DNA of 64,000 nt from Hydrogenophaga sp. (GTDB lineage Bacteria > Pseudomonadota > Gammaproteobacteria > Burkholderiales > Burkholderiaceae_C). Each line of letters starts with the position of its first letter. The stretch's first letter is position 1. The notes beneath the pieces are model-generated. The model was not told the origin of the DNA. It saw only the letters and a program-made list of their open reading frames with translations, and made no database searches. The stretch is taken from assembly GCF_026125785.1 (NCBI RefSeq), contig NZ_JAHCKL010000013.1:1-64000 (forward strand). The letters run 5' to 3'. The position numbers and the translations under genes are program-made. Shown here piece after piece: positions 1 to 14,390 of this stretch.

Positions 1-312
1 CTTGTGTTGGACGAAGGTTGAGGTCAGCGAAAGACGCAGGCGCGCACCGGCCCTGGCCGGGCACACGGGCGGCGGTGTCAGTCGGGTCGAGGGGGCTTCG
101 GGCCTGCAGGCCCGGGGCCGGCTAGCGGCGGTGGCGGTCAGGTCCGTGGCGGACCGTGCGTTCGGGGTTCATGGCGTCTCCAAGTCTTGTTGTTCCGTAC
201 TGGGCACCCAGGGGGTGCACGGGCTCAGAGTATGGGACGCAATCCATGTCGGTGAAAATGAAAAAAACGTCTCATTCATACCTTTATGGATATGGATGAT
301 CGCCGCTTCACT
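1..312. other. Left-edge stretch without a supportable gene
   Basis: Frames here are open mainly because the DNA is GC-rich; none has a convincing start with a ribosome binding site or a recognisable protein. A minus-strand ATG at 172-174 has a GGAGAC just upstream but meets a stop after 16 codons. A perfect 16-bp palindrome, cgggcctgcaggcccg, lies at 99-114. From about 241 to 300 the DNA becomes markedly AT-richer, directly downstream of the AraC-type gene stop. It may be the 3' flank of that gene plus the promoter of something left of the window. Confidence 0.4.
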
Positions 313-1239
313 TCACGCCTTTGCCTCGGTGGGCGAGGGGTCGAACTGCCGCAGGGCCTGTGCCCGGAAGTCGCGCGGGCTCATGCCGGTCTGCCGTTTG
401 AAGAAGCGGCTGAAGTAGGCGTCGTCCTCGAAGCCGAGTTCGTGCGCCACCATCTTGACGCTGCCCACGGTGTAGACCAGTTCGCGCTGCGCCTCATGGA
501 TGAGCCGGGCGTTGATCAGGTCCAGGCTGGACATGCCCAGCACTTCGCGGCAGATGCGCGAGAGCTGGCCGGCGGTCAGTCCCATGATGCTGGCGTAGGC
601 CTGCACGCTCCAGTGTTCGCGGAAGTGCTGGTCGAGCAGGGTCTTGAACTGCTCGATCTGCCGCGTCTTGCGCGAGCTGAAGGGCAGTTCGATGCGGGTG
701 TCGGCTTTCTCCGGCGTGCCCACGATGCGTGCGATCAGCACCAGCAGCGCGGTCATGAGCGACATGCCCGCAGCGGTCTGGCCGCTGGCGTGAAGGCGGG
801 ACTCGCGTTCGAGTTCGAGGAAGATGGGCATGAGCGAGGCCACGTGGCGGCTGTCGGTGGGCAGCGCGACGACCCTCGGCGTGCGGATCACGCTCTGGAG
901 TTCGGGCATGAGCAGCGTGGCCAGGGACTCCAGCACCTTCTGTGTGATGGTGACCACGGGGCCGTTGACCTTGGGCGTGAAGCTGAAGCCGTGGGCGGTA
1001 CCGGCCGGCAGCAGGATGAGGCAGGGTGCCTGGGCACGGATGCGCGCGCTGTTGATCGTGACCTGGCCTTCGCCCTCGGTCAGGTAGAGCAACTGCAGGA
1101 AGGCGTCGTGCCGGTGTACCTGAATTTGCCAGTTGTAGAGGCGCGAACGTTGCGGAATCCACTCGAAATTGAAGGAGTTCGACCAGGCCAGGCCTGCCTG
1201 ATCGCCGTAAAGGTCATAGTTGGGAATACTCCGGGCCAT
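313..1239 (-). CDS. AraC-family transcriptional regulator (PobR-like)
   Basis: This 308-residue protein has the two-part layout of AraC regulators that sense aromatic or other carbon compounds. The N-terminal half (about 20-150) has a cupin-like effector region with an HRHDAFLQLLYL stretch and a LLPAGTAHGF turn. The C-terminal 100 residues carry the paired helix-turn-helix, including the family signature around AYFSRFFKRQTGMSP. It is divergent from the SDR/flavoprotein/NIPSNAP operon across 123 bp, the usual arrangement for a local activator, so it probably controls that operon. The effector cannot be read from sequence. PobR (4-hydroxybenzoate) is the nearest family style, but the neighbours are not pobA. 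Confidence 0.88.
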   Translation of the reverse strand: MARSIPNYDLYGDQAGLAWSNSFNFEWIPQRSRLYNWQIQVHRHDAFLQLLYLTEGEGQVTINSARIRAQAPCLILLPAGTAHGFSFTPKVNGPVVTITQKVLESLATLLMPELQSVIRTPRVVALPTDSRHVASLMPIFLELERESRLHASGQTAAGMSLMTALLVLIARIVGTPEKADTRIELPFSSRKTRQIEQFKTLLDQHFREHWSVQAYASIMGLTAGQLSRICREVLGMSSLDLINARLIHEAQRELVYTVGSVKMVAHELGFEDDAYFSRFFKRQTGMSPRDFRAQALRQFDPSPTEAKA

Positions 1240-1362
1240 GGGCGTGCACAGGTCCTGATGGTCAAAAATGTGCAGGAATTGTCCTGTTCATGGCTGCAAA
1301 CGTCAAATCCGGGACGGCCGCTCTGGCCAACAATCAAGCCCTCGAAAAACCAGGAGACAAGC

Positions 1363-2187
1363 TTGTCCGAACCGTCTTCCCATTGGCTGGGCCTGCAGGG
1401 CCGTGTTTGTGCAGTGACCGGCGCCGCCAGCGGCATCGGCGCTTCCGTGGCGCGCCAGTTGGCGCAGGCGGGCGCCCACGTGGCGCTCATTGACCGCGAC
1501 CTCGAAGGGGCCGGCCGCCTCGCCGCCGAACTGGCCACCACCTTCGGTGCCTCGGGGGTGCGCACCCTCGCCGTGGGGTGCGACATCGCCAGCGAGGAGC
1601 AGACCCTGGCCGCAGCTGCCCAGGTGCAGGCCCAACTGGGTGATTGCGCGGCCCTCATCAACAACGCCGGCCTGCTGCGCGCGGGCAGCCTGGACAGCGT
1701 CAGCCTGGCCGACTGGAACATGGTGCTGGGTGTGAACCTCACCGGCTACCTGCTGTGCTCGCGGGCCTTCAAGCCGCAGCTTGCGCGTACCCGCGGCGCG
1801 TTGGTGCACGTCTCGTCCATTGCCGGGTTGTTCCCGCAGTCCAGCAGCGGGGCCTACAGCGCGGGCAAGGCCGGTGTGCTGCTGATGTCGCGCCAGATGG
1901 CGACCGAATGGGGGCCACTGGGCATCCGCAGCAACGCCATCTGCCCAGGCATGATCCGTACCGCGCTGTCGGCCAAGTTCTACGAGGAACCGGGCCTGGA
2001 AGAGAAACGCGCGGCCGTCACCGCGAGCCGGCGCGTCGGCGAGCCGCAGGACATTGCCGATGTGGCGTTGTTCCTGGCCAGCCCACGCTCGGCCTACATG
2101 AACGGCGCCGAACTGTCCGTGGACGGTGGCATGTCCTCCATGCTCATGGACATGGTGCCGCGCCCTGGCTACAACAAAACCGCTTGA
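1363..2187 (+). CDS. Short-chain dehydrogenase/reductase (SDR)
   Basis: A classical SDR of 274 residues if translation starts at the TTG at 1363, preceded by AGGAGA six bases upstream. The frame is open far upstream, but that part is antisense to the regulator gene and unlike an SDR. Visible elements are the NAD(P)-binding TGAASGIG at 19-26, NNAG at 100-103, catalytic Ser in VSSIAG near 152, Tyr165 and Lys169 (YSAGK), and the C-terminal VDGG. It probably oxidises an alcohol or reduces a ketone on a hydrophobic substrate. It is first in a three-gene operon with a KstD-like flavoprotein (13-base gap), suggesting consecutive redox steps on a ring or steroid-like compound. Substrate unknown. Confidence 0.88.
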   Translation: MSEPSSHWLGLQGRVCAVTGAASGIGASVARQLAQAGAHVALIDRDLEGAGRLAAELATTFGASGVRTLAVGCDIASEEQTLAAAAQVQAQLGDCAALINNAGLLRAGSLDSVSLADWNMVLGVNLTGYLLCSRAFKPQLARTRGALVHVSSIAGLFPQSSSGAYSAGKAGVLLMSRQMATEWGPLGIRSNAICPGMIRTALSAKFYEEPGLEEKRAAVTASRRVGEPQDIADVALFLASPRSAYMNGAELSVDGGMSSMLMDMVPRPGYNKTA

Positions 2188-2200
2188 GGAGATATCTCTC

Positions 2201-3904
2201 ATGAAGACCGAATACGACCTGATCGTCGTGGGCTCCGGCGCCGCCGGCCTGGCTTGCGCCGTGACCGCCAAGAAGCGCGGCCTGGATGTGGTGGTGCTGG
2301 AAAAGGAACCGGTGTTTGGCGGCACCACCGCGTTGTCGGGCGGTGTGCTGTGGATTCCACTGAGCACGCACGGACGCAAGCAGAACCCGCAGGACACGCG
2401 CGACGCGGTGCGCCGCTACATGCTGGAAGAGACCGGCCAGTACTACGACGAAGCGGCGGTGGAGGCCTTCATCGAGCAGGGGCCGAAGATGGTGGAGTTC
2501 TTCGAGCGCGAGACCGCCATGCAGTTCGCGCCCACGCTGTACCCGGACTACCACCCGCACCTGCCGGGTGGTGCCGACATCGGCCGCTCCATCCTGGCCG
2601 CGCCCTTCGATATCCGGGGCCTGGGCAAGGACATGCCGCGCCTGAAGCGTCCGCTCAAGACCATCACCTTCATCGGGATGATGTTCAACTCGTCGAACGC
2701 CGATCTCAAGCACTTCTTCCAGTTCACCAAGTCGCTGACCTCGTTCGTCTACGTCACCAAGCGGCTGTTGACCCACCTCAAGGAACTCGCGCTCTACCAG
2801 CGCGGCATCAACGTCACGACCGGCAACGCGTTGGCGGCACGGCTGGCCAAGTCGGCGCTGGACCTGGGTATCCCGATCCTGACCGACACGCCGGTGCAGG
2901 GCCTGGAGCAGGACGGCGATCGCGTCGTGGGCGTGCGCACGGGCGGGCAGGGCGGTGCGAAGCGCTTCACCGCTCGCCGCGGCGTGGTGCTGGCCACCGG
3001 CGGTTTCCCGCACGACGCCAAGCGCCTGGCGCAGGCCTACCCACACGTGCGCCGTGGGCATGAACACCTCTCGCCCACGCCGACCAGCAACACCGGCGAC
3101 GGCCTGAACATGGCCGAGAAGGTCGGGGGTGTGGTCGACATTCGCCTGAAGTCGCCCGCAGCCTGGATTCCGGTGTCCCGAGTGGACTATGGCGGCGGCG
3201 AGATCGGCGTGTTTCCTCACCTGCTGGACCGCTACAAGCCCGGCATCATCGGTGTGCTCAAGAGCGGCAAGCGCTTCACCAACGAATCCAACTCGTACCA
3301 CGACGTCGGCGCGGCCATGGTCGAGGCCTGCGAGGGCACGGGCGAGACGGCCATGTGGCTGATCTGTGACAAGCCGACCCTGGCCAAGTACGGCCTGGGC
3401 TTCGTCAAGCCCGCGCCCATGCCCATTGGCAAATTCCTGCGCAACGGGTACCTGGTCAAGGGCAACACGCTGGCCGAGCTGGCCAGGAACGCCGGTATCG
3501 ACCCGGTGGGCCTGGAGCAGACGGTGCGCGAGTACAACGCGGGCGCGGTCAAAGGCGAAGACCCGGCCTTTGGCCGCGGCAGCACCGCTTTCAACCGCTA
3601 CCTGGCCGACCCGGCCGTGCAGCCCAACCCCTGCGTGGCGCCGGTGCAGAGCGGCCCGTTCTTCGCGGTCAAGCTGGTCATGGGCGACCTGGGATCGTTC
3701 GACGGCCTGAACACCAGCGTGGTCGGCGAGGTGCTGCGGCGCGACGGCTCGGCCATCGCCGGCCTCTATGCCGTGGGCAACGACCGCGCCAGCGTCATGG
3801 GCGGCAACTACCCGGGCGCCGGCATCACCCACGGGCCGAACATGGTGTTCGGCTACGTTACCGCCAACCACATCGCCGATCGCAGCACCGGGAGCCCCGC
3901 ATGA
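2201..3904 (+). CDS. FAD-dependent dehydrogenase, 3-ketosteroid dehydrogenase/fumarate-reductase-like
   Basis: A 567-residue flavoprotein starting at the ATG at 2201, seven bases after GAGATAT. The Rossmann motif VVGSGAAG sits at the N-terminus (GxGxxG at 11-16), followed by the FAD-contacting EKEPVFGGTTALSGG. The C-terminus has NYPGAGITHGPNMVFGY, typical of the family containing KstD, flavocytochrome c and related ene-oxidising enzymes. KstD relatives introduce a double bond beside a keto group. Overlapping stop/start (ATGA) with the NIPSNAP gene implies translational coupling. The exact substrate (steroid, terpenoid, cyclohexanone-like) is not deducible. Confidence 0.85.
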   Translation: MKTEYDLIVVGSGAAGLACAVTAKKRGLDVVVLEKEPVFGGTTALSGGVLWIPLSTHGRKQNPQDTRDAVRRYMLEETGQYYDEAAVEAFIEQGPKMVEFFERETAMQFAPTLYPDYHPHLPGGADIGRSILAAPFDIRGLGKDMPRLKRPLKTITFIGMMFNSSNADLKHFFQFTKSLTSFVYVTKRLLTHLKELALYQRGINVTTGNALAARLAKSALDLGIPILTDTPVQGLEQDGDRVVGVRTGGQGGAKRFTARRGVVLATGGFPHDAKRLAQAYPHVRRGHEHLSPTPTSNTGDGLNMAEKVGGVVDIRLKSPAAWIPVSRVDYGGGEIGVFPHLLDRYKPGIIGVLKSGKRFTNESNSYHDVGAAMVEACEGTGETAMWLICDKPTLAKYGLGFVKPAPMPIGKFLRNGYLVKGNTLAELARNAGIDPVGLEQTVREYNAGAVKGEDPAFGRGSTAFNRYLADPAVQPNPCVAPVQSGPFFAVKLVMGDLGSFDGLNTSVVGEVLRRDGSAIAGLYAVGNDRASVMGGNYPGAGITHGPNMVFGYVTANHIADRSTGSPA

Positions 3905-4275
3905 ACGCCACCACACCACTGCCCTGGACCTCCACCAGCGCCACCTCGTTGAGCAAGCCGCTGGTGGACCACCGGATCTACACCATTGCTCTGCGCAAGA
4001 TGCCCGAGTTCCTGGACGTCTTCAACCGTCTGGCCATGCCCATCCTCATGAAGACCCTGGCGCACCCGGTGGGCTTCTACACCAGCATGGTCGGGCCGCA
4101 GAACCAGTTCATCCACATGTGGGCCTACGAAGACCTGGCCGACTACGAGCGCCGCAGCCGCCAGCGCGACAGCCACCCGGACTTTCCGGCCTACCTCAGC
4201 GCCTCGGCCCACCTCATCGTGGCCCAGGAAACCCGGCTGATCCGGGCCACCGCCATGCCAGGCTGGGCGGCTTGA
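3901..4275 (+). CDS. NIPSNAP-family protein
   Basis: This 124-residue protein carries one NIPSNAP/dimeric alpha-beta-barrel-like unit: VDHRIYTIALRKMPEFLDVF, a GFYTSMVGPQNQFIHMWAYEDL core and a short helix ending near residue 100. Bacterial NIPSNAP proteins are small and recur in catabolic operons, but their biochemical role is unestablished; binding or isomerisation of hydrophobic intermediates is only inferred. Its start overlaps the flavoprotein stop by four bases, so the two are probably made in fixed ratio. No signal peptide; cytosolic. Confidence 0.82.
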   Translation: MNATTPLPWTSTSATSLSKPLVDHRIYTIALRKMPEFLDVFNRLAMPILMKTLAHPVGFYTSMVGPQNQFIHMWAYEDLADYERRSRQRDSHPDFPAYLSASAHLIVAQETRLIRATAMPGWAA

Positions 4276-4362
4276 AGCGGCCGGACGACTCGCTCAAGGT
4301 GAGGAATACGTCACATCCGGCCGATCCAGACGGATTTCGGCCGGTTTGTCACGCAGTTCTGC

Positions 4363-4391
4363 TTACTTTTTGTTGCGGGCGGCCCTATACT
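4363..4391 (+). promoter_or_regulatory. Candidate sigma-70 promoter for the HPr-rel-A-type operon
   Basis: A good -10 hexamer, TATACT, at 4386-4391 lies 17 bp after a poor -35 match (TTACTT, 4363-4368), within the 180-bp gap before the GYWKN-domain gene. Transcription would begin near 4398 and give a leader of about 58 nt. Confidence 0.4.
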
Positions 4392-4407
4392 TGACGTACA
4401 AAGATTG

Positions 4408-4421
4408 AACCCCCGGGGGTT
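4408..4421. repeat. 14-bp perfect palindrome in the operon leader
   Basis: AACCCCCGGGGGTT is a perfect palindrome with no loop bases, so it is more plausible as a protein-binding site than as an RNA hairpin. It lies just downstream of the predicted start point, where a repressor could act. It might equally be chance in GC-rich DNA. Confidence 0.3.
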
Positions 4422-4455
4422 TTCCGGATTCGGGAGCGAACACGAGGTACGCAAC

Positions 4456-5058
4456 ATGATGGACTCTTCTCAGCAACCTTCTTCCACGCCGTCGTCTCAC
4501 CAGGCATCGGGGATTGCTCGACGCCGTCTGGTGCGTGCCGGCCTGACCGCCGCGCCCGTGCTGGCCGCGCTGAAGACCAACAGCGTGCTGGCCGGTGACC
4601 ACACCTGCATCCGCCCCTCGTCGTTCTCCTCGCTGGCCGCTGCCCACATGAAGGTCAGCCAGGGTCGCGTGATCCGCTCCGACTACGAGTGCCAGTCGCA
4701 CGGCTACTGGAAGAACAAAGGCTCGGGCCTGCCGAGCAACTTCAAGGAAAAGACCCTGTTCCTGGGTGCCACCGGCTTCGTTGCCAACCCTCGCGATGCC
4801 TACAGCAAGCTTTCGCTGCAGGACGTGCTGGAACTCAAGGGCAACCAGAACAACGCTGCGCTGGCGCGCCATGTGGTCGCGGCCTACCTGACGGCAACCA
4901 AGTTCAACAACAGCTCCGAGCGCGTGCTGCTGACCAAGGGCCAGTGCGTACAGATCTGGAATGGCCAAGGCAACTGGTCGCCGTTTGCCGGTGCCAACTG
5001 GAATCTGGCGCAGACCATGGCGTATTTCGACATGATCTACGGCCCGGCCTTCCTGTGA
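4456..5058 (+). CDS. Exported GYWKN-domain protein, first gene of HPr-rel-A-type operon
   Basis: Two ATGs in tandem (4456, 4459) follow CGAGGTA and give about 200 residues. After a Ser/Gln-rich start comes a basic RRRLVRAG followed by a hydrophobic stretch ending LAALKTNSVLAG, which resembles a Tat-like or Sec export signal with cleavage near residue 47. The mature part has DYECQSHGYWKNKG and later ALARHVVAAYLTATKFNN. These resemble the 'GYWKNH ... LG ... GN ... LA.QLIAAKLN' domain of many secreted proteobacterial surface proteins. Three mature Cys are visible (in HTCIR, YECQS, GQCVQ). The stop overlaps the PqqD-like start (GTGA), so it is coupled to the modification-type genes. I infer that it may be their substrate or partner; its function is unknown. 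Confidence 0.7.
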   Translation: MMDSSQQPSSTPSSHQASGIARRRLVRAGLTAAPVLAALKTNSVLAGDHTCIRPSSFSSLAAAHMKVSQGRVIRSDYECQSHGYWKNKGSGLPSNFKEKTLFLGATGFVANPRDAYSKLSLQDVLELKGNQNNAALARHVVAAYLTATKFNNSSERVLLTKGQCVQIWNGQGNWSPFAGANWNLAQTMAYFDMIYGPAFL

Positions 5059-5354
5059 CCCTGGCGCCGGCGTATGCCGGTTGCCATTGCGCGCGGCCCG
5101 GCGATTTCGTGCTTCAGCGCTGGCCGGACGGAGTGGTCGTCTACGACGATGCCAACGCCAGCCTGCACGCCTTGAACCTCGTCGCCGGCGAGGCTTTCGA
5201 ACTTCTCCTGAACCAGTCCGAAGCGACGGATGCCCGTGCGCTGGCGTACGCGCTGGTGCAGACCGAGCCCACGGAGGAGGATGTCGAACTGGTGGCCTCC
5301 CTGCTGGCGCAATTCGAGTCCATGGGTCTGATCGAGTGCACGCAGACGCGCTGA
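5055..5354 (+). CDS. PqqD-like protein of HPr-rel-A-type system
   Basis: Ninety-nine residues from the GTG at 5055, which overlaps the preceding stop. The features DFVLQRWPDGVVVYDDANASLHALNLVAGEAFELL and a C-terminal helix ending FESMGLIE match the small winged-helix PqqD/RRE fold: a beta hairpin, then 'L N . . A . . ih . LL'. PqqD-type proteins bind a peptide or protein substrate and present it to a modifying enzyme. No radical-SAM enzyme follows; instead there is an HprK-like kinase and a nucleotidyltransferase. That combination is what NCBI naming calls the HPr-rel-A system, with no known chemistry. Confidence 0.78.
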   Translation: MTLAPAYAGCHCARPGDFVLQRWPDGVVVYDDANASLHALNLVAGEAFELLLNQSEATDARALAYALVQTEPTEEDVELVASLLAQFESMGLIECTQTR

Positions 5355-6268
5355 GCGCCCCGCGGACGGTGGCCTCGTTGCCGCCCGACGAACTGGCCCG
5401 CCGTCTCGACGGCGACGGCATTGTGCTGCGCCTGCCTCCTTTTGCCATGCGCATCCGCAGCCCGATTCCAGTGGTGGCCCAGGGCCTGCGCGCGCTCTAC
5501 CCGGACCACGTGCTGCTGGAAGGGGAAGACCATTTCGTCGACTTCCACGTCGCGGTCAAGCCCCGGCGCCGGCTGTTCAAATCGGTCTGCGTGTTCGAGA
5601 TGGACGGCTTCCAGCCCTTCACGCCGCTGGCCTATGGCGAGGCCTTCGCCTTTCTCGAATGGGGCATGAACTGGTGCGTCACCAGCTACTGCCACACCTG
5701 GATCACCATCCACTCTGCCGTGCTCGAGCGCAACGGGCGCGTGGTGCTGCTGCCGGCCCCGCCAGGATCGGGCAAGAGCACGCTCTGTGCCGCGCTGATG
5801 CTCAGCGGCTGGCGCCTGCTTTCTGACGAGATGGCGCTGCTGGACCCGGTCACGGGCCTGGTCACGCCTTCGCCACGCCCGGTAAGCCTGAAGAACCGGT
5901 CCATCGAGGTGATCCGCCAACGCGCCCCGGACGCCGGCTTCGGCCCGGTGGCCCGCGACACCATGAAGGGCACGGTGGCCCACATGCGCATCTCCGCCGA
6001 CAGCCTGGCGCGCGCCGACGAACCCGCCCGTCCGGCCTGGGTGGTGTTTCCGCGTTACCAGCAGGACGCACCGCTGACCATCACCGAACGTCCCCGCGCC
6101 AGCGCCCTGGTGGAACTGGCGTCCAACAGCTTCAACCAGCATGTGCATGGCCGCGACGGTTTTCAGGCGCTGGCGCGGCTGGTGGATGGCTGCGCTTGCC
6201 ACGACCTCGCCTACGGCCAGCTCGATGAGGCCATTGCCTGGTTCAATGCACAGGCGGAGGCCGCATGA
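5336..6268 (+). CDS. HprK-related kinase A
   Basis: About 310 residues from a GTG at 5336 (overlapping the PqqD-like gene by 19 bases); a second in-frame GTG at 5369 would give 299 and fits family N-termini (ASLPPDELARRL) equally well. The nucleotide-binding APPGSGKST lies near 141-149, followed by LLSDEMALL, an acidic motif comparable to the post-P-loop Asp/Glu of HPr kinase/phosphorylase. The N-terminal half (RSPIPVVAQGLRALYP) is specific to this HprK offshoot. HprK proper phosphorylates a serine of HPr; this protein sits away from any pts genes, so its target is open. Its stop overlaps the nucleotidyltransferase start (ATGA). Confidence 0.82.
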   Translation: MHADALSAPRTVASLPPDELARRLDGDGIVLRLPPFAMRIRSPIPVVAQGLRALYPDHVLLEGEDHFVDFHVAVKPRRRLFKSVCVFEMDGFQPFTPLAYGEAFAFLEWGMNWCVTSYCHTWITIHSAVLERNGRVVLLPAPPGSGKSTLCAALMLSGWRLLSDEMALLDPVTGLVTPSPRPVSLKNRSIEVIRQRAPDAGFGPVARDTMKGTVAHMRISADSLARADEPARPAWVVFPRYQQDAPLTITERPRASALVELASNSFNQHVHGRDGFQALARLVDGCACHDLAYGQLDEAIAWFNAQAEAA

Positions 6269-7365
6269 CGCTGCCAGCCATCGACCTGCTCGTCACCGCG
6301 CTGCAGCGTCCGCAGACCTTGCCCTCATTGGCGCCGCGCGACTGGGATCTGCTCATCCGCCAGGGCCGCCAGGCCGATCTGCTGGCCCGCCTGGGCGGTC
6401 GCGCGCAGGCCTCGGGCCAGTGGGACGCGCTGCCCGCTTCGCCGCGGCGCCATCTGGCCTCGGCCATGATGCTGGCGGCGCGCCAGCACCGCGAGCTGCG
6501 CCACGAGGTGGTGCAGGTGGCGCGCGCGCTCGAACCGATCGGCGTGCCCACCGTGCTGCTCAAGGGGGCGGCCTACACGATGGCCGGGCTGGACGCCAGT
6601 GTCGGGCGCATGGTGTCGGACGTGGACATCCTGGTGCCGCGCGAACGGCTGGCCGAAGTGGAGTCGGCGCTGATGATGGCCGGATGGGTGTCCATGAACC
6701 GCGATGCCTACGACCAGCGCTACTACCGCACCTGGATGCATGAGCTGCCGCCGCTCAAGCACATGCGCCGTGGCACGGTGCTGGACGTGCACCACGCCAT
6801 CATGCCGCTGAGCGCACGCCTCAAGCCGGATTCGCACCTGCTGCTGGCCGCCGCGCGGCCGCTGCCGGCGGACCCTCGCATCCGCGTGCTGAGCGAGCCC
6901 GACATGGTGCTGCACAGCGCGGCCCATCTGTTTCACGAGGGCGACCTGGAACTGGGCCTGCGGGGCCTGGTGGACCTGGATGCGCTGCTGCGTGAATTCG
7001 AGGCGACGCCCAACTTCTGGCCTGGACTGGTCGAGCGGGCGGAGCACATGCAACTGGAGTGGCCCCTGCACCAGGCGCTGCGGTACCTGGCCCTGCTGCT
7101 GGGCACGCCCGTGCCGGCAGCGGTGACGCAGGCGCTGCAGGCGACGGCGCGCGTGCATGCGGGTGCGCGGCGCCAGCGCTGGCTGGATGCGCTGTTCCTG
7201 CGTGCGTTGCGCCCGGCGCATGCCTCGACCTCCGATGCCTGGACACCGACAGCCCGCTTCCTGCTGTACCTGCGCGGCCACTGGCTGCGCATGCCGCCCG
7301 GTCGCCTGGCCTGGCATCTGCTGCGCAAGGCTCTGCGGCCGGCGCCGCCTCCCAGCGAGGCCTGA
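6265..7365 (+). CDS. Nucleotidyltransferase family protein (NTP_transf_5-like)
   Basis: A 366-residue protein with the pattern of the uncharacterised nucleotidyltransferase family: PTVLLKGAAYTMAGLD near 95-110 and RMVSDVDILVPRERL near 114-128, where the two Asp of DVD would bind metal. A LIRQGRQADLLARL start precedes these and a DMVLHSAAHLFHEGDL segment follows, as in related proteins. It probably transfers a nucleotide or phosphoryl-sugar to an acceptor; which one is unknown. It is the fourth gene of a unit with overlapping starts and stops, so it should act with the PqqD-like and kinase-like proteins. Confidence 0.78.
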   Translation: MTLPAIDLLVTALQRPQTLPSLAPRDWDLLIRQGRQADLLARLGGRAQASGQWDALPASPRRHLASAMMLAARQHRELRHEVVQVARALEPIGVPTVLLKGAAYTMAGLDASVGRMVSDVDILVPRERLAEVESALMMAGWVSMNRDAYDQRYYRTWMHELPPLKHMRRGTVLDVHHAIMPLSARLKPDSHLLLAAARPLPADPRIRVLSEPDMVLHSAAHLFHEGDLELGLRGLVDLDALLREFEATPNFWPGLVERAEHMQLEWPLHQALRYLALLLGTPVPAAVTQALQATARVHAGARRQRWLDALFLRALRPAHASTSDAWTPTARFLLYLRGHWLRMPPGRLAWHLLRKALRPAPPPSEA

Positions 7366-7369
7366 CGTG

Positions 7370-8143
7370 ATGGCCTCGCTGCGCTGGCTGACGGGGTGGC
7401 TGGGTCTCGCCGTCCTGGCCTGGAGCCTGCCGGTGCATGCCGCCGGCCTGGTGGATACGGTGGCCCGTGTGCGCAACTCGGTGGTGCTGGTGGGGAGCGT
7501 GAAAACCGACGAAAGCCCGCACTTTCAGCACCGGGGTACTGGCTTCCTGGTGGGGCGGGGCGATCTCGTGGTGACCACCGCGCATGCGCTGGCGGACACC
7601 CAGGGCGGGGCCGACGTCTCGGTGCCCGTGGTGCAGGTGCGCCAGGCAGGGGGCGCGTGGCAGATGCGCACAGTGACGGTGGTGGAAATCGATGCCGCCC
7701 GCGACCTGGCGTTGCTGCGCCTGCGCGAGGTGGCCGGTGCCGGCTTGCGGCTGGGCGACTCTTCAGGCGTGCGTGAAGGAGACGATCTGGCTTTCATCGG
7801 ATTTCCCGTCGGAGGGGCCCTGGGTTATGCGCCGGCCACCCACCGTGCCATGGTGTCGTCCATCACCTCGGCGGCCTTGCCCAGTCCTTCGGCCGAGCGT
7901 TTGCAGCCGCAGGCCATACGCAGTTTGCGCGAGGGCCGCATCGAGCTCTTCCAGCTCGATGCCACCGCGTTTCCGGGCAACAGCGGAGGCCCTTTGTTCG
8001 ATGTACAGACCGGCGAGGTCGTGGGCGTGATGAACCTCGCCCTGATCAAGACCACGCGCGAGGCGGTGCTCAGCCAGCCCTCGGGCATTTCCTACGCAAT
8101 ACCCAGCCGGTATGTCGCCGAGCTGCTGAAGAAATACCTCTGA
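7370..8143 (+). CDS. Exported trypsin-like serine protease
   Basis: A 257-residue protein with a signal peptide ([22 protein letters not shown], split by a typical AxA-type site), starting at ATG 7370 (an adjacent GTG at 7367 is also possible). The chymotrypsin-fold catalytic triad is visible: His72 (TTAHAL), Asp112 (ARDLALL) and Ser205 (PGNSGGPLF). There is no PDZ domain, so it is shorter than DegP/DegQ. The gene begins four bases after the nucleotidyltransferase stop, placing it in the same transcript. It may process the exported first-gene product in the periplasm (inference), or be a general quality-control protease. Confidence 0.85.
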
Positions 8144-8153
8144 GACGGGAGAC

Positions 8154-9275
8154 ATGACGATGCAGGGTGAGGAGCTGGTGGATGTGGTGGTGGTCGGGGC
8201 CGGCGTGGTCGGGCTGGCGGTGGCGCGCGCCCTGGCGCTGGCAGGCCGCGAAGTCATGGTGCTGGAGCGCGAGGCCGCCATAGGCACTGGCACCAGTTCG
8301 CGCAACAGCGAGGTCATCCACGCCGGCATCTACTACCCCACCGGTTCTCTCAAGGCAGCGCTCTGCGTACAGGGGCGTGACGCGCTGTACGCCTACTGCG
8401 CCGAACGTGGTGTGGCCCACCAGCGCTGCGGCAAGCTGATCGTGGCGAACACGCCTTCGCAACTGGGTGCTCTGCCGGCCATCGTCGAGAAGGCCCGGGC
8501 CAATGGCGTTGACGACCTGCGCCTGCTCTCTCGCGAGGAAGCCTGCGCATGGGAGCCCGCGCTCGAATGCCTGGGCGCCGTGCACTCGCCCTCGACCGGC
8601 ATCGTGGACAGCCATGGCCTCATGCTGGCCTACCAGGGCGACCTGGAGCATGCCGGCGGCATGGTGGCCTGTCACAGTGGCGTAGAGGCCATGGTGGTGT
8701 CCGAGGGGGGCATTGGTTTGCAGGCCACCGACGGCACGCGCCTGCGGGCCCGCGCGGTGGTGAACGCCGCTGGCCTGGACGCCTGCGCGCTGGCTTCGCG
8801 CACGCACGGCCTGGACCCACGCCACGTACCGCGAGCCTGGTACGCCAAGGGCAACTACTTCACGCTGGCCGGGCGTTCGCCCTTTACCCGTCTGATCTAC
8901 CCGGCGCCGGAGCCCGACCGCCACCTGGCGGGCCTGGGCGTGCACCTGACCATCGACCTTGGCGGGCAGGCCAAGTTCGGCCCTGATGTGCAATGGGTGG
9001 CGTCGCCCGACGACCTGGTGGTCGACCCCGCGCGCGCAGAGGCCTTCTACGGCGAGGTGCGCCGCTACTGGCCAGGCCTGGCCGATGGAGCCCTGCAGCC
9101 GGGCTACGCCGGCATGCGGCCCAAGATCAGCGGGCCGGACCAGCCGGCGGCCGATTTCCTGATCCAGGGGCCCCAGGTGCACGGTGTGCCGGGCCTGGTG
9201 AACCTCTTCGGCATCGAGTCGCCCGGGCTGACCAGCAGCCTGGCCATCGGTGCGCGCGTGGCCGCGCTGCTCTGA
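8154..9275 (+). CDS. FAD-dependent oxidoreductase, L-2-hydroxyglutarate oxidase-like
   Basis: A 373-residue DAO-superfamily flavoprotein with VVGAGVVG (GxGxxG at 15-20) and the signature [15 protein letters not shown] found in L-2-hydroxyglutarate dehydrogenases/oxidases (LhgO, L2HGDH). The C-terminal [13 protein letters not shown] closes the FAD site. LhgO returns L-2-hydroxyglutarate, a metabolic by-product, to 2-oxoglutarate using a quinone or oxygen. It begins ten bases after the protease stop with GGGAGA ahead, so it probably shares the upstream transcript, though a functional link is not obvious. It converges on pyrD with a nine-base gap. Confidence 0.8.
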
Positions 9276-9284
9276 CGAAAAGTA

Positions 9285-10373
9285 TCAGGCCTTCTTGGCA
9301 TGGGCCTGGAGGGCCCGCGCCGCCTCCCAGACCAGCGACGGGCCCTTGTAGATCAGGCCCGTGTAGATCTGCACGAGCTGGGCGCCGGACTCCAGTTTGC
9401 TCACCGCGTCCTCCGCGCTGAGCACGCCGCCCACGCCGATGATGGGGAAGCTCTTGCCCAGGCAGGCGCGCAACTGGCGGATCACGCGGTTGCTGGCCTG
9501 CAGCACCGGCCCCCCCGAGAGGCCACCCGCTTCCTGCGCATGCGGCAGGCCCGCTACCGCCTCTCGGCTGAGCGTGGTGTTGGTGGCGATCACGCCGAGG
9601 GCGTTGGTGGCCTGCCCTTGCGCGTCGGCGCCGTAGCGCATCAGCGTGGCGGCGATGACCTCGATCTGCGCGTCGTCCAGATCGGGGGCGATCTTCACGA
9701 ACACAGGAATGCGTTTGCCGTGGCGCTGCGCGAGCAGCTCGCGCCGCTCCGCCACCGCACCCAACAGGGCATCCAGCGCCGCATCGCTTTGCAGACTGCG
9801 CAGGTTCTGCGTGTTGGGGCTGGAGATGTTGACCGTGACGTAGTCGGCGTGGGGGTAGACGCCGTCCAGGCAGGTGAGGTAGTCGTCGGTGGCGCGCTCG
9901 ATCGGCGTGCTTGCGTTCTTGCCGATGTTCAATCCCAGCAGCATGGGACTCACGCCCGCCTGCTGGCGAAAGCGCGCGCGCTGCACGTTGCTGACGAAGG
10001 CGTCGAGCCCCTCGTTGTTGAAGCCGAGCCGGTTGATCAGCGCGTTCGCCTTGGGCAAGCGGAACATGCGTGGTTTGGGGTTGCCGCCTTGCGCCTTGGG
10101 TGTGACGGTGCCGACCTCGACGAAACCGAAACCCATGGCCGAAAGGCCGTCGATGCAGCGGGCGTTCTTGTCCAGCCCGGCGGCGAGGCCGATCCGGTTG
10201 GGGAACTGCAGGCCGGCCACGGTGCAGGGGTCGTGCACGCGCGGCTCACCGTAGAGACAGGTCAGCGGCGAACGCTGGAGGCGGGCGATGGCGTCGAGGG
10301 TCAGTTCATGGGCCGCCTCGGGATCCATCTTGAACAGCAGAGGGCGCGCGAGAGCGTACGGCAGCAGCGACAT
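9285..10373 (-). CDS. pyrD: Dihydroorotate dehydrogenase (quinone), class 2
   Basis: A 362-residue class-2 enzyme that oxidises dihydroorotate to orotate at the inner membrane with FMN and ubiquinone, the fourth step of pyrimidine synthesis. An amphipathic N-terminal helix region ([21 protein letters not shown]) typical of membrane association precedes the barrel. [39 protein letters not shown] (catalytic Ser region) and [11 protein letters not shown] are all present. The start lies only 38 bp from rpiA, which is divergent, so the promoters of both must overlap or enter coding sequence. Confidence 0.96.
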
Positions 10374-10411
10374 TGGATAATCCGACTTGTTGTTTTCACC
10401 GATTGTCTCAA

Positions 10412-11083
10412 ATGACCCAAGACGAACTCAAAGCGCTGGTGGGCCAGGCCGCCCTGCAATACGTGACCCCTGGCGAGATCGTCGGCGTGGGCACGGGCTC
10501 CACGGTCAACAAGTTCATCGATGCCCTGGCCTCCATGCGCGAACAGATCCGCGGCGCGGTGTCCAGTTCCGAGGCATCGACGGCCCGCCTGAAGTCACTG
10601 GGCATTCCGGTGTTTGAGGCGAACGCGGTGGAAGAACTCTCGGTCTACATCGACGGCGCCGACGAGATCGACGCCCGGGGTTTCATGGTCAAGGGCGGCG
10701 GCGCGGCACTCACGCGCGAGAAGATCGTGGCGGCACAGTCTCGGCGCTTCGTCTGCATCGCCGACGAATCCAAGCTGGTCCAGGCGCTGGGCGCCTTCCC
10801 GCTGCCGGTGGAGGTGATCCCGATGGCGGCGGCCCGCCTGATGCGCCAGTTCGCTGCGCTGGGCGGGGTCGCGAAGATCCGCCTCAAGGACGGCATACCG
10901 CTGGTGACGGACAACGGGCAGCACATCCTGGACGTGACCGGGCTGCGCATCACCGAGCCGCTGGCCTTCGAGAGCCAGGTGAACCAATGGCCGGGCGTGG
11001 TGACGGTGGGCGTTTTCGCCCACCAGAAGGCGCATGTCTGTCTGCTGGGCACGCCCAACGGCGTGAAGACGCTGAACTTCTGA
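10412..11083 (+). CDS. rpiA: Ribose-5-phosphate isomerase A
   Basis: A 223-residue enzyme interconverting ribose-5-phosphate and ribulose-5-phosphate in the pentose phosphate pathway. Family hallmarks are [12 protein letters not shown] (phosphate loop) near 27-38, DGADEID with the catalytic Asp region, and [13 protein letters not shown]. The start at 10412 is chosen because the protein then begins MTQDELK, as in other RpiA; 13 upstream in-frame codons are unlike the family. It faces the glutaredoxin-type gene tail to tail with nine bases between stops. Confidence 0.96.
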
Positions 11084-11092
11084 CGGTCGCCG

Positions 11093-11755
11093 TCAGAAAC
11101 GGATGCCAGCGGGATTGGGTGGCGCGGGCTCGGCGGCGGGCGCCTGTTGCTGTGCCGGAGGTGTCGATGCCGGCGCGGCGCCACGCGCACCTGCTGCTTC
11201 GGTCTGCACCGCCACCAGTGGGCTGGGTGCCGGGCGGCGGTAGCTGGAGGGAAGGGCGGACTGCTTGGGGTAGCCCGCCGCGTCCAGGAACTTCGTCCAT
11301 TCGGTGTCCGAATAGCCCTTGATCTGTTGGCCGCCAATGGTCAGGAACGGCAGCGACGTGTCGCCGCTGAGCCGCTGCAGCGCCTCGGTGTCCTGCGCGC
11401 TGTCGATCGTCTTTTCCACATACGGGATGCCGCGCGCGTTCAGCAGGTTGCGCCCGCTGTTGCATGGGGCGCAGTCGCGGCTGCTGTAGAGCGTGACCGG
11501 GAAGCGGCTGCTGATCTGGCGCAGTTCATAGGGCAACTGCGCGGACGCCGCGGGGGCCGGGCCGGAGGCCGCGCCGGCCGCTGGCCGGTTGCCCTGGCCG
11601 GCCGGCGGCGGCTGGTCCGAGAAGGTGACCCGCCCGTCGGGCCCCACGATGCGGTAGACGCCTTGTGCCAGCACCGGTGCAGCCAGCAAGCCGGTGAGCA
11701 GGCCCAGGCCCAGCAGACGGGGCAGGAAGGCGAAGGCGGGGCGGGTGACGTTCAT
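11093..11755 (-). CDS. Exported DUF4124-glutaredoxin protein
   Basis: A 220-residue protein with a cleavable signal (PRLLGLGLLTGLLAAPVLAQG), a DUF4124 segment (VYRIVGPDGRVTFSDQPPP, about 31-50), a Pro/Ala linker and a glutaredoxin domain (about 85-155) with the redox pair CAPC in YSSRDCAPCNSG and a TLPF-equivalent SLPFLTI. The tail (160-220) is Pro/Ala/Gln-rich and probably disordered. DUF4124-glutaredoxin fusions are common in Burkholderiales and are predicted periplasmic thiol-disulfide proteins without assigned partners. The gene follows prlC by 31 bases on the same strand. Confidence 0.82.
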   Translation of the reverse strand: MNVTRPAFAFLPRLLGLGLLTGLLAAPVLAQGVYRIVGPDGRVTFSDQPPPAGQGNRPAAGAASGPAPAASAQLPYELRQISSRFPVTLYSSRDCAPCNSGRNLLNARGIPYVEKTIDSAQDTEALQRLSGDTSLPFLTIGGQQIKGYSDTEWTKFLDAAGYPKQSALPSSYRRPAPSPLVAVQTEAAGARGAAPASTPPAQQQAPAAEPAPPNPAGIRF

Positions 11756-11786
11756 GAAGGCTCCTATCGGCAGTCGTCGGCAGAAC

Positions 11787-13868
11787 TCAAGCCATGCCCT
11801 GGTGGCGCAGCAGCGCGTCGATGCTCGGCTCGCGTCCTCGGAAGGCCTTGAAGGACTCCATGGCCGGCCGGCTGCCACCCGCTTCCAGGATGGCCTCACG
11901 GTAGCGGCGTCCGGTGGACACGTCCAGCGTGCTGTGGCCATTCTGCTGCGCAGCCTCCTCAAAAGCCGCATAGGCGTCGGCAGACAGCACCTCGGCCCAC
12001 TTGTAGCTGTAGTAGCCGGCCGAGTAGCCGCCCGCAAAGATGTGGCTGAAGGTGTGGGGCGTGCGGCTGTAGGACGGAGGCTTGAGCACAGCCACCTCAT
12101 CGCGCACCTGCCGCTGCAGCGCCAGGATGGCCGCGCCGCTGGTCAAGGGTTCGGGCTGGCTGTGCAGCAGCATGTCGAACAGCGCGAACTCCACCTGGCG
12201 CAGCGTCTGCAGGCCGCTCTGGTAGTTCTTGGCCGCCAGCATCTTGTCGAACAGCGCGCGCGGCAGCGGCTCACCGGTGTCCACATGCGCCGTCATGTGC
12301 CGCAGCACGTCCCATTCCCAGCAGAAGTTCTCCATGAACTGGCTGGGGAGTTCCACGGCGTCCCACTCCACGCCGCTGATGCCCGAGACATCGCGCTCGT
12401 TGACCTGCGTGAGCATGTGGTGCAGGCCGTGGCCGAACTCGTGGAAGAGGGTGATGACGTCGTCGTGCGTCAGCAGCGCGGGCTTGCCATTGACCCCTTC
12501 GGCGAAGTTGCAGACCAGGTGCGCCACCGGTGTCTGCAGCCGGCCGGTATCGGGGCGCAGCCAGCGCGCGCGCACGTCGTCCATCCAGGCGCCGCCGCGC
12601 TTGCCGGTGCGCGCGGCCGGGTCCAGGTAGAACTGACCGACCAGTTCTGTCCCCCCCGGGCCACGGCGTTCAATGCGGTAGAACTCGACGCCCGGGTGCC
12701 AGACGGGCGCCTGGTCGCGCCGGATGGCGACCTCGAACAGCGTCTCGACGATCTGGAACAGGCCGGCCAGCACCTTGGGGGCGGTGAAATAGGGTTTGAC
12801 CTCCTGCTCGCTGAAGGCGTACCGCGCCTCTTTGAGCTTCTCGCCGATGTAAGGCCAGTCCCATGCCTGGGGATCGGTCAGGCCCAGTTCGGACGCCGCG
12901 AACGAACGCAGGTCGGCCAGGTCTTTCTCCGCATGGGGCCGTGCCTTGCGGGCCAGGTCGCGCAGGAAGCCGATCACCTGCTCGGGCGAGTCGGCCATCT
13001 TGGGCACCAGCGACACGTCGGCGTAGTGGCGGTGGCCAAGCAGACGGGCCTCCTCGTGGCGCAGGGCCAGCAGCTCGCCCATGATGGCCGCGTTGTCGAA
13101 CTTCACCGCATCGCCGTCGGCCTGGTCGCTGGCACGCGTGGCGTACGCCCGGTAGAGCTTTTCGCGCAGCGCGCTGCTGTGCGCGAACTGCATCACCGGC
13201 AGGTAGCAGGGCATCTTCAGCGAGAGTTTGTGGCCCTCCTTGCCCTCGGCCCGCGCGGCTGCCGCCGTGGCCTGCAGCACGTCGTCGGGCACACCCGCCA
13301 GCTCGGCGGTGTCCGCGTACAGCACGAAGGCGTCGGTGGCGTCGAGGGCGTTTTCGCTGAATTTCTGGGCCAGTTCGGCCTGGCGTTCCTGCAGCCAGGC
13401 GAACCGGGTACGGGCCTCGCCCTGCAGCTCGGCACCGCCGAGAACGAAGCCCAGCATGGCGTTGTGGTGGGCGCGCGCCTGCTCCGGGGTGAGCCGTGTC
13501 GGGTCCATGGTCTTGTACTTGGCGTACAGCCGCTCATCGGCGCCCAGGCGCGTCCAGAACTCGGTGACGCGGGGCAGGGCCTCGTTGTAGGCCGCACGCA
13601 ACTCTGGCGTGTCGGCCACGCTGTTGAGGTGGTTGACCGCACCCCATGCCCGCGACAGCCGCTCGGTGGGCACGTCCAGTGCCAGCGAAATGGCGCGCCA
13701 GTCGGCCGGGAAGTCGGCGGCGGTCACTTTTTCCAGAGCTGCGTCGGCATCCTGGAGCAGTGCGTCGATGGCGGGCGCCACCAGAGCGGGCGTGATCGCG
13801 TCGAACCGGGGCAGGTCGGAGAAGTCGAGCAGCGGGTTTTCCGCGAGAGGGGTGGTGGAGTCGGTCAT
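11787..13868 (-). CDS. prlC: Oligopeptidase A, M3-family metallopeptidase
   Basis: A 693-residue cytosolic zinc peptidase; the zinc motif HEFGHGLHHM lies near residue 476 and the M3 fold signature GGYSAGYYSYKWAEV is close to the C-terminus. Length matches E. coli PrlC (680). It degrades peptides of roughly 8-20 residues, including cleaved signal peptides. The gene sits between the CRM-domain gene (51-base gap) and the DUF4124-glutaredoxin gene on the same strand, so the three may be co-transcribed. Confidence 0.94.
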   Translation of the reverse strand: MTDSTTPLAENPLLDFSDLPRFDAITPALVAPAIDALLQDADAALEKVTAADFPADWRAISLALDVPTERLSRAWGAVNHLNSVADTPELRAAYNEALPRVTEFWTRLGADERLYAKYKTMDPTRLTPEQARAHHNAMLGFVLGGAELQGEARTRFAWLQERQAELAQKFSENALDATDAFVLYADTAELAGVPDDVLQATAAAARAEGKEGHKLSLKMPCYLPVMQFAHSSALREKLYRAYATRASDQADGDAVKFDNAAIMGELLALRHEEARLLGHRHYADVSLVPKMADSPEQVIGFLRDLARKARPHAEKDLADLRSFAASELGLTDPQAWDWPYIGEKLKEARYAFSEQEVKPYFTAPKVLAGLFQIVETLFEVAIRRDQAPVWHPGVEFYRIERRGPGGTELVGQFYLDPAARTGKRGGAWMDDVRARWLRPDTGRLQTPVAHLVCNFAEGVNGKPALLTHDDVITLFHEFGHGLHHMLTQVNERDVSGISGVEWDAVELPSQFMENFCWEWDVLRHMTAHVDTGEPLPRALFDKMLAAKNYQSGLQTLRQVEFALFDMLLHSQPEPLTSGAAILALQRQVRDEVAVLKPPSYSRTPHTFSHIFAGGYSAGYYSYKWAEVLSADAYAAFEEAAQQNGHSTLDVSTGRRYREAILEAGGSRPAMESFKAFRGREPSIDALLRHQGMA

Positions 13869-13919
13869 GCGTTCTCAGATGTGGCGCTGTGAGGGGAATT
13901 CAAGCCGACGGTCCGGGCG

Positions 13920-14390
13920 TCAGCGGGCGCTTTTCTTCACGCTCTTCTTGAGCACTTTCGCCCGCTTGACCTGTCCCCCCGGTGTCAGGCGCTGGTTGCC
14001 CAGCACGCGGACCACCTTGACCTCGGGCCGCTGGCTACCACGTTTGCTGAACTTGAGCACCTTGACGTCGCGCGGACCGGGCATGCGGTCCTCGTCCACC
14101 ACCTTTTCCTTGGGGGGGATGGGGCGCCAGAGCACCAGCAGCTTGCCAATATGCTGGATGGGGGCCGCATCCAGCTCGTCGGCCAGCGTCTGCAGCATGG
14201 CTTCCCGCTGGGCGCGGTCGTCGCTGAACACGCGGATCTTGATTAGGCCATGCGCCTTGAGCGCAAGGTCGGTTTCCTTCTTGACCGCAGGGCTGAGGCC
14301 GTCTGCGCCGATGTGCACGACGGGGTCCAGGTGATGGGCCTCGGCGCGGTGAACCTTGCGTTGGGCGGGAGTGAGAATGATCTGGGGCAT
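13920..14390 (-). CDS. yhbY: CRM-domain RNA-binding protein (YhbY-like)
   Basis: The first ~95 residues form a CRM/YhbY domain: [46 protein letters not shown] and [11 protein letters not shown]. YhbY associates with pre-50S ribosomal particles. Unlike the ~97-residue E. coli protein, this one has a ~60-residue Lys/Arg-rich tail ([15 protein letters not shown]) that may add RNA contacts. It is divergent from rlmE over 38 bp; the yhbY/rlmE/ftsH arrangement is widely conserved. Confidence 0.9.

Follow-up and report, generated by a model that had tools for sequence, protein, structure and literature searches.

The window examined here (64,000 nucleotides of a Hydrogenophaga sp. genome, contig NZ_JAHCKL010000013.1) contains six tightly packed genes at 4456-9275, all on the (+) strand, and these raise a simple question: on what does an HPr-rel-A cassette act? 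HPr-rel-A is the NCBIfam name for the pairing of HprK-related kinase A (TIGR04352) with a PqqD family peptide chaperone (TIGR04353), and an NTP_transf_5 gene next to the kinase is a further hallmark. The window has the kinase and the chaperone side by side, the chaperone just under its cut-off, and its NTP_transf_5 gene adjoins the kinase. Our literature search, which had most subscription papers outside its reach, found no mention of HPr-rel-A, HprK-related kinase, TIGR04352 or TIGR04353, nor any described HPr-rel-A substrate. The answer that we consider probable is that the cassette acts on its own exported protein, encoded by its first gene: a serine is phosphorylated, a further transfer probably follows, and the protein leaves through the twin-arginine translocation (Tat) system.

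The evidence which carries this answer is comparative. TIGR04352 scored above its cut-off in 37/150 genomes of a family sample, 61/398 of a phylum sample and 32/200 of an order sample, with weak matches among the genomes counted as kinase-negative (4/150 in the family sample, 29/200 in the order sample). The family and order samples share only two kinase-positive genomes, that of the window (G000) and G114, from the same genus. Neighbourhoods were read for 219 loci, and 214 of them have distinct kinase sequences. The initial annotation had named the lack of a conserved exported protein beside the gene triplet as an outcome that would refute its reading, and this outcome did not occur: 205 of the 214 loci have a related exported protein within the cassette or next to it, usually directly before the PqqD-like gene.

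We took as substrate candidates all open reading frames (ORFs) with a twin-arginine-type signal that end 100-560 bp before the kinase domain, and clustered them with phmmer. Such an ORF exists in 195 loci; 188 form one cluster, and the remaining 7 were judged spurious. Among the 26 loci outside the main cluster, the exported protein is upstream in 9 (7 found by profiles, 2 by reading), directly behind the NTP_transf_5 gene in 7 and on the opposite strand in one (L190). Profiles built from the exported proteins gave 190 upstream matches in the fetched stretches (E<1e-5) and 9 elsewhere, the latter only in loci without an upstream copy. When the signal peptides are removed and the 188 mature parts are clustered (phmmer E<1e-4), they fall into class A (121), B (29), C (9), D (8), E (4) and 17 others, with no similarity detectable between clusters.

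Exported protein and kinase also go together across genomes. In the family sample, class A matches at E<1e-6 occur in 36/37 kinase-positive and 0/113 kinase-negative genomes; six of those 113 have weak matches, with E above 5e-5. The window's own exported protein, used as a query, found matches in 22/147 genomes, and all 15 same-genus matches (window excluded) have the kinase within the fetched 1.5-kb flank. The gene order exported protein, PqqD-like protein, kinase, NTP_transf_5 protein is found again in other genera and families, and the protease and FAD genes follow within the genus, so the packing of the cassette is not chance.

In the window, the genes and the motifs discussed below are as follows.

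4456..5058 (+): GYWKN protein, the proposed substrate, 200 aa; Tat-like signal at residues 1-46, mature chain from G47, with cleavage placed by pattern only
4618..4632 (+): codons of S55-S-F-S-S59, the candidate acceptor motif, from the class A alignment
4702..4716 (+): GYWKN motif, residues 83-87, from the sequence
5055..5354 (+): PqqD-like RiPP-recognition-element protein, 99 aa, GTG start; TIGR04353 near-match and predicted fold
5336..6268 (+): HprK-related kinase A, 310 aa, GTG start; TIGR04352
6265..7365 (+): NTP_transf_5 nucleotidyltransferase-like protein, 366 aa; PF14907, with KG...R..SDVD at residues 100-121
7370..8143 (+): trypsin-like protease, its N-terminus signal-like by eye, its likely triad H72, D112, S205; PF13365
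8154..9275 (+): FAD oxidoreductase, LhgO-like; PF01266

The first four genes overlap by 4, 19 and 4 bases in turn, followed by gaps of 4 bases before the protease and 10 before the FAD oxidoreductase. Family scores agree with the identities first assigned to these genes, as do the coordinates with the tight packing: 366.7 bits for the kinase (TIGR04352, cut-off 200), 184.9 for the fourth gene (NTP_transf_5, PF14907, cut-off 31.2), 86.0 for the protease (Trypsin_2, PF13365, cut-off 27.6; motifs TAH and GNSGGP present) and 216.1 for the oxidoreductase (DAO, PF01266, cut-off 27.9), whose top NCBIfam model, L-2-hydroxyglutarate oxidase, is below cut-off (219.4 vs 299). With 32.6 bits, the PqqD-like protein falls slightly short of TIGR04353 (cut-off 35), and a Pfam scan at E 0.1 gave nothing for it. 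Nor does the GYWKN protein match any Pfam family, PEP-CTERM included; its sole NCBIfam match is MamG (E 0.016). The exported proteins of the window and L186, the two scanned, match no NCBIfam model at cut-off. Searches of PDB sequences with the NTP_transf_5, PqqD-like and exported proteins gave no matches.

What do exported proteins with unalignable mature parts have in common? In most of them, [ST]-x-(mostly hydrophobic)-x-S forms a short motif, which in class A sits close to the N-terminus of the mature part and in others close to the C-terminus. The motif's last serine is the sole invariant column of class A (121/121), the next columns being L and C (114 each), and this last serine is likewise kept in classes B (29/29), C (9/9) and D (8/8). 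In the window, the invariant column is S59, 13 residues into the predicted mature chain, and the position of S55 is Ser in 113/121 class A proteins. Measured from the predicted mature N-terminus, the median distance of the class A serine is 13 residues (range 3-31); for class B, measured from the C-terminus, it is 3 (range 1-16).

For controls, we used shuffled sequences and 1327 other proteins from 139 of the loci, 156 of which pass a loose Tat-like filter. The N-terminal form occurs in the first 35 residues of 88/121 class A proteins, against a shuffle mean of 14.2 (most 27) and 4/156 of the other Tat-filter proteins. Near the C-terminus, S/T-[CA]-(hydrophobic)-x-S occurs in every protein of class B (29/29), class D (8/8) and class E (4/4), with shuffle means of at most 0.1, and in the last 45 residues of 2/1327 other proteins. 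About half of the 17 other exported proteins have a motif at the expected end.

It is this serine motif, together with the Tat-like signal peptide, that defines the family. The initial annotation had described the protein by its GYWKN domain, and as the hallmark of the family we reject GYWKN: it is exact in 20 and present in a loose form in 32 of the 121 class A proteins, although its Trp column is W in 104. Domains of the GYWKN type, found with a separate 48-row full-length alignment (A2), also occur in two very long repetitive surface proteins, L356:4264-10785 (2173 aa called) and L357:23-3889 (1288 aa called), which we take to be SdrD-B-like; there is no kinase match within the two stretches read.

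The signal peptides point to a second shared feature. A twin arginine is present in 187/188 exported proteins, all of which had entered the set through just such a filter, and a lipobox-like string in 3. The window signal, ARRRLVRAG...SVLA, has a twin arginine, a hydrophobic core and an AxA-like site. From its sequence, the exported protein thus has Tat-type signal features, and export would be by Tat. Within the signal core, the pattern P, three hydrophobic residues, [TSA], [LVIM] occurs in all proteins of classes B (29/29), C (9/9) and E (4/4), in 12/17 of the others and in the window (PVLAAL), as against only 2/156 other Tat-filter proteins. Like signal peptides on unalignable mature domains (B, C and E) suggest recognition by a common partner.

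A candidate for that partner is the PqqD-like protein. Its AF2 model (pLDDT 93.5) places it as a winged-helix recognition element (RRE) of the kind found in systems for ribosomally synthesised and post-translationally modified peptides (RiPPs). Its leading Foldseek matches in the PDB are RREs of lasso peptides in structures that include leader peptides; the top one, and the sole one under E 0.001, is TbiB1 (5v1v; probability 1.00, TM 0.62/0.69, E 8.1e-4); NO66 proteins rank 7-13 and PqqD itself (5sxy) ranks 23. The RRE would then bind the signal peptide as its leader.

The protease raises the first of the rival explanations. In the family sample, a homologue (E<=1e-30) is present in 36/37 kinase-positive and 4/113 kinase-negative genomes, and in the order sample in 29/32 and 16/168; like all co-occurrence figures here, these are counts of species, not of independent events. 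The protease that the initial annotation included in the system is therefore a real associate, though one which also tracks XrtA/PEP-CTERM genes. PrsK scores above its cut-off in 34/37 kinase-positive and 5/113 kinase-negative genomes of the family sample (28/32 and 22/168 in the order sample). The protease occurs in 4/5 (family) and 14/22 (order) of the PrsK-bearing genomes without kinase, and where both kinase and PrsK are missing it occurs in 0/108 and 2/146. The window genome (G000) has a second copy of the protease at C1:203236-203940, 53% identical, although that genome gave no exosortase match and no PrsK above cut-off.

One might then suppose that the exported protein is a RiPP-like precursor, i.e., a carrier whose motif end the protease cuts away after modification and export, so that the real product is a short peptide, phosphorylated (and glycosylated). 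The motif serine is indeed close to a chain end in classes A and B, the protease co-occurs with the kinase, and exported motif proteins stand in tandem within one cassette in L074 and L246. We nevertheless think this unlikely: conservation extends to the remainder of the mature chain (the L, N, W and Cys columns of class A), which a carrier would not need, and the protease occurs in XrtA genomes without the kinase. The L246 pair lies behind the NTP_transf_5 gene. In L162, L164 and L246 the exported protein is found behind that gene, and the cassette directly follows a gene which we take to be hslV-like.

What of the NTP_transf_5 protein? A match on the kinase strand is present in 202/214 loci, and KG...R...DxD is kept in all 186 matches of at least 150 positions. 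Several class B loci without a match, among them L202, L203, L207 and L208, have a gene of 540-580 aa after the kinase instead. A conserved nucleotidyltransferase could also serve cofactor installation, in which it and the kinase link a nucleotide or cofactor to the serine by a phosphoester and so make a redox or binding protein. ApbE attaches FMN in this way, and Tat often exports folded cofactor-bearing proteins. The near-constant NTP_transf_5 gene with its intact DxD fits such a scheme, as does the FAD oxidoreductase that follows in the genus. This oxidoreductase is, however, unsupported as a core component: among 39 family loci and the window, a strong match was found only in G114 and the window, so the arrangement given in the initial annotation, with this gene behind the protease, holds within the genus (13/15 loci) and not beyond it among the loci checked. 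Furthermore, no recurring cofactor-synthesis gene was noticed beside the cassette, where neighbours were not systematically annotated, and the best-studied kin bear phosphate and hexose, as described in PMC9266682. We regard cofactor installation as doubtful.

The kinase itself keeps the catalytic motifs. Its P-loop is APPGSGKST (residues 141-149), its H126, P-loop and D164-E165 align with HprK structures 1jb1/1ko7, and the P-loop pattern is present in 213/214 kinases. By cut-off it is not an HPr(Ser) kinase/phosphorylase (TIGR00679, 15.7 bits, cut-off 240), and it is not needed for HPr, since the window genome encodes a separate, canonical HPr kinase elsewhere (TIGR00679, 328.3 bits). For these reasons, and because an invariant serine in an otherwise diverged family suits an acceptor better, it is very improbable that the exported protein is merely a partner or sensor for a kinase targeting another protein such as HPr, despite the kinase's sequence homology, around the P-loop, with HPr kinases of solved structure. 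Outside Pseudomonadota, L299 (in a record titled Phycisphaeraceae) has kinase A with an upstream ORF that is transposase-like by eye and no exported motif protein seen.

Which other machinery accompanies the cassette? XrtA and exopolysaccharide (EPS)-type genes flank it in 25/29 class B and 4/4 class E loci. The corresponding class A figure, 48/106, is soft because the PrsR-like regulators counted are generic; PrsK stands beside 18 of the class A loci and EpsB2 beside 10. As a specific partner, the exosortase was rejected (hand count of 35/37 kinase-positive genomes and also 43/113 kinase-negative ones). Cassette and protease occur together in 14/15 same-genus loci, where the remainder are cut short, as they are for the FAD gene; upstream there is PrsK in 6, EpsB2 in 5 and neither in 4. 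In the window, the position that PrsK or EpsB2 occupies in 11/15 of these relatives holds FAD_binding_2 and NIPSNAP genes (2201-4275) which overlap by 4 bases. The other 5' neighbours are an AraC-type regulator and a short-chain dehydrogenase, and the 3' neighbours are dihydroorotate dehydrogenase, ribose-5-phosphate isomerase, DUF4124 and M3 peptidase genes. The initial annotation was right that no exosortase is nearby: there is none among the genes of window 1-14000, and the window genome (4.17 Mb, 46 contigs, 93.8% complete) has no exosortase match and no PrsK above cut-off. The cassette here would therefore work without XrtA/PrsK, unless these lie in the missing part of the genome.

Several observations weigh against reading the exported protein as a kinase substrate, or against parts of the scheme around it. 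No exported protein was found in 9/214 loci, two of which have less than 360 bp upstream, and 12/214 have no NTP_transf_5 match, ten of them with at least 1.8 kb of flank (the contigs of L184 and L195, also without a match, end less than 140 bp after the kinase). The motif patterns were composed after the sequences had been read. The general pattern misses 33/121 class A proteins in the first 35 residues and 3/9 of class C, where two serines are invariant and the strict pattern fits 5/9; a clear motif is absent in L166, L277, L280, L284 and most of a cluster of three; and the motif end is not the same across classes. The serine stands out most in A and B: invariant columns number four in class B, seven in class C and many more in class D, so the serines of C and D alone say little. 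Even in class A, the acceptor may be S55 or S59, as the invariant column depends on the alignment (in A2, S55 is invariant and S59 is kept in at least 90%). The signal core is present in 46/121 class A and 0/8 class D proteins. The exported protein's AF2 model is moderate (pLDDT 74.8) and has no solved-fold match (Foldseek found nothing under E 1). The protease is weakened as an HPr-rel-A-only partner, tracking PrsK/XrtA genes as well as the kinase, and XrtA/EPS-type genes flank 0/9 class C and 0/8 class D loci. Finally, substrate class follows a FastTree tree of the 214 kinases, with 4 changes sufficing for five classes (the minimum; 47.7 with shuffled labels), but vertical descent contributes to this agreement and alone could produce it.

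With these points in mind, we propose the following sequence of events. What comparison shows is the cassette, the exported protein belonging to it, the motif, the RRE fold, the conservation of catalytic motifs and the co-occurrences; the identity of the substrate and of its acceptor serine, and the steps below, are inferred from these. The substrate would be the product of the cassette's own first gene, and its twin-arginine signal peptide would double as a leader to which the PqqD-like RRE binds in the cytoplasm. HprK-related kinase A would phosphorylate the motif serine shortly after the mature chain begins, most probably S59, otherwise S55. To the phosphoserine so formed, the NTP_transf_5 protein would add a further group, most probably a sugar or nucleotide. 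Export of the modified protein by Tat would follow, and the trypsin-like protease may trim or mature it in the envelope. In most relatives, the cassette would work alongside the XrtA/PEP-CTERM exopolysaccharide machinery. The modification steps are proposed because of the kin systems PadeK, PsmK, PsmN and LppK. The modify-then-export reading put forward in the initial annotation thus gains considerable support from the recurring exported protein; GYWKN as hallmark and a general role for the FAD gene are not borne out.

A more speculative extension, which we hold to be a long shot, is that the Tat-exported protein bears a phosphodiester-linked glycan: kinase A would make the phosphoserine, the NTP_transf_5 protein would add the first sugar, and the exopolysaccharide machinery of XrtA-type loci would build on or capture it, so that the protein anchors or primes the matrix.

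How does the cassette compare with known systems? With XrtA/PEP-CTERM it shares loci (often in or beside XrtA/EPS-type genes, as in class B) and co-occurrence with PrsK; unlike in that system, PEP-CTERM is not matched by the exported protein of the window, whose genome gave no PrsK above cut-off and no exosortase match. The lasso peptide systems of paeninodin and pseudomycoidin are closer. As described in PMC9266682, these also have an RRE, an HprK-like kinase and a nucleotidyltransferase, with a serine near the precursor end: PadeK (paeninodin) and PsmK (pseudomycoidin) phosphorylate the C-terminal serine of the precursor, and hexose attachment to the phosphoserine requires PsmN, with a host glycosyltransferase acting after nucleotidylation left open. 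The window differs in that its precursor is a 200-aa Tat-type exported protein, not a short peptide, and an asparagine-synthetase-like cyclase and B2 leader peptidase are absent among the six genes and eight neighbours (window 316-13868).

The systems for linear polyphosphorylated peptides (LPP) of Bacillota are alike in their RRE, HprK-like kinase and NTP transferase. PMC13381572 places them in capsular polysaccharide loci, with precursors of 35-200 aa, and reports that LppK phosphorylates S3 of the LppA core. Their signal peptidase is SipW-like and their transporter MsbA-like; neither is present among the same six genes and eight neighbours. The window cassette has instead a Tat-type signal, a trypsin-like protease, a host in Pseudomonadota and a different motif; the terms Tat, twin-arginine, Pseudomonadota and Proteobacteria are absent from the main text of the LPP paper. 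LPP precursors share the consensus YxxPxVLxHQxIxFETxxS, according to the same text, and its P-x-V-L resembles the signal core described here, which may be coincidence. Without the cyclase and leader peptidase of the lasso systems, or the SipW-like peptidase and transporter of LPP, the cassette is filed as HPr-rel-A. In its proposed workings it resembles the systems of paeninodin, pseudomycoidin and LPP, yet it belongs to none of these.

If the proposal is true, one signal peptide serving as both export signal and RRE leader would be new. An HPr-rel-A annotation that came without a substrate gains a candidate substrate, a candidate acceptor motif and a testable link to the exopolysaccharide matrix. 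In Bacillota, sets of HprK-like kinase, RRE and NTP transferase modify small peptides, and the HPr-rel-A cassette appears to do likewise, via Tat, to exported proteins with mature parts of approximately 85-240 residues in many Pseudomonadota.

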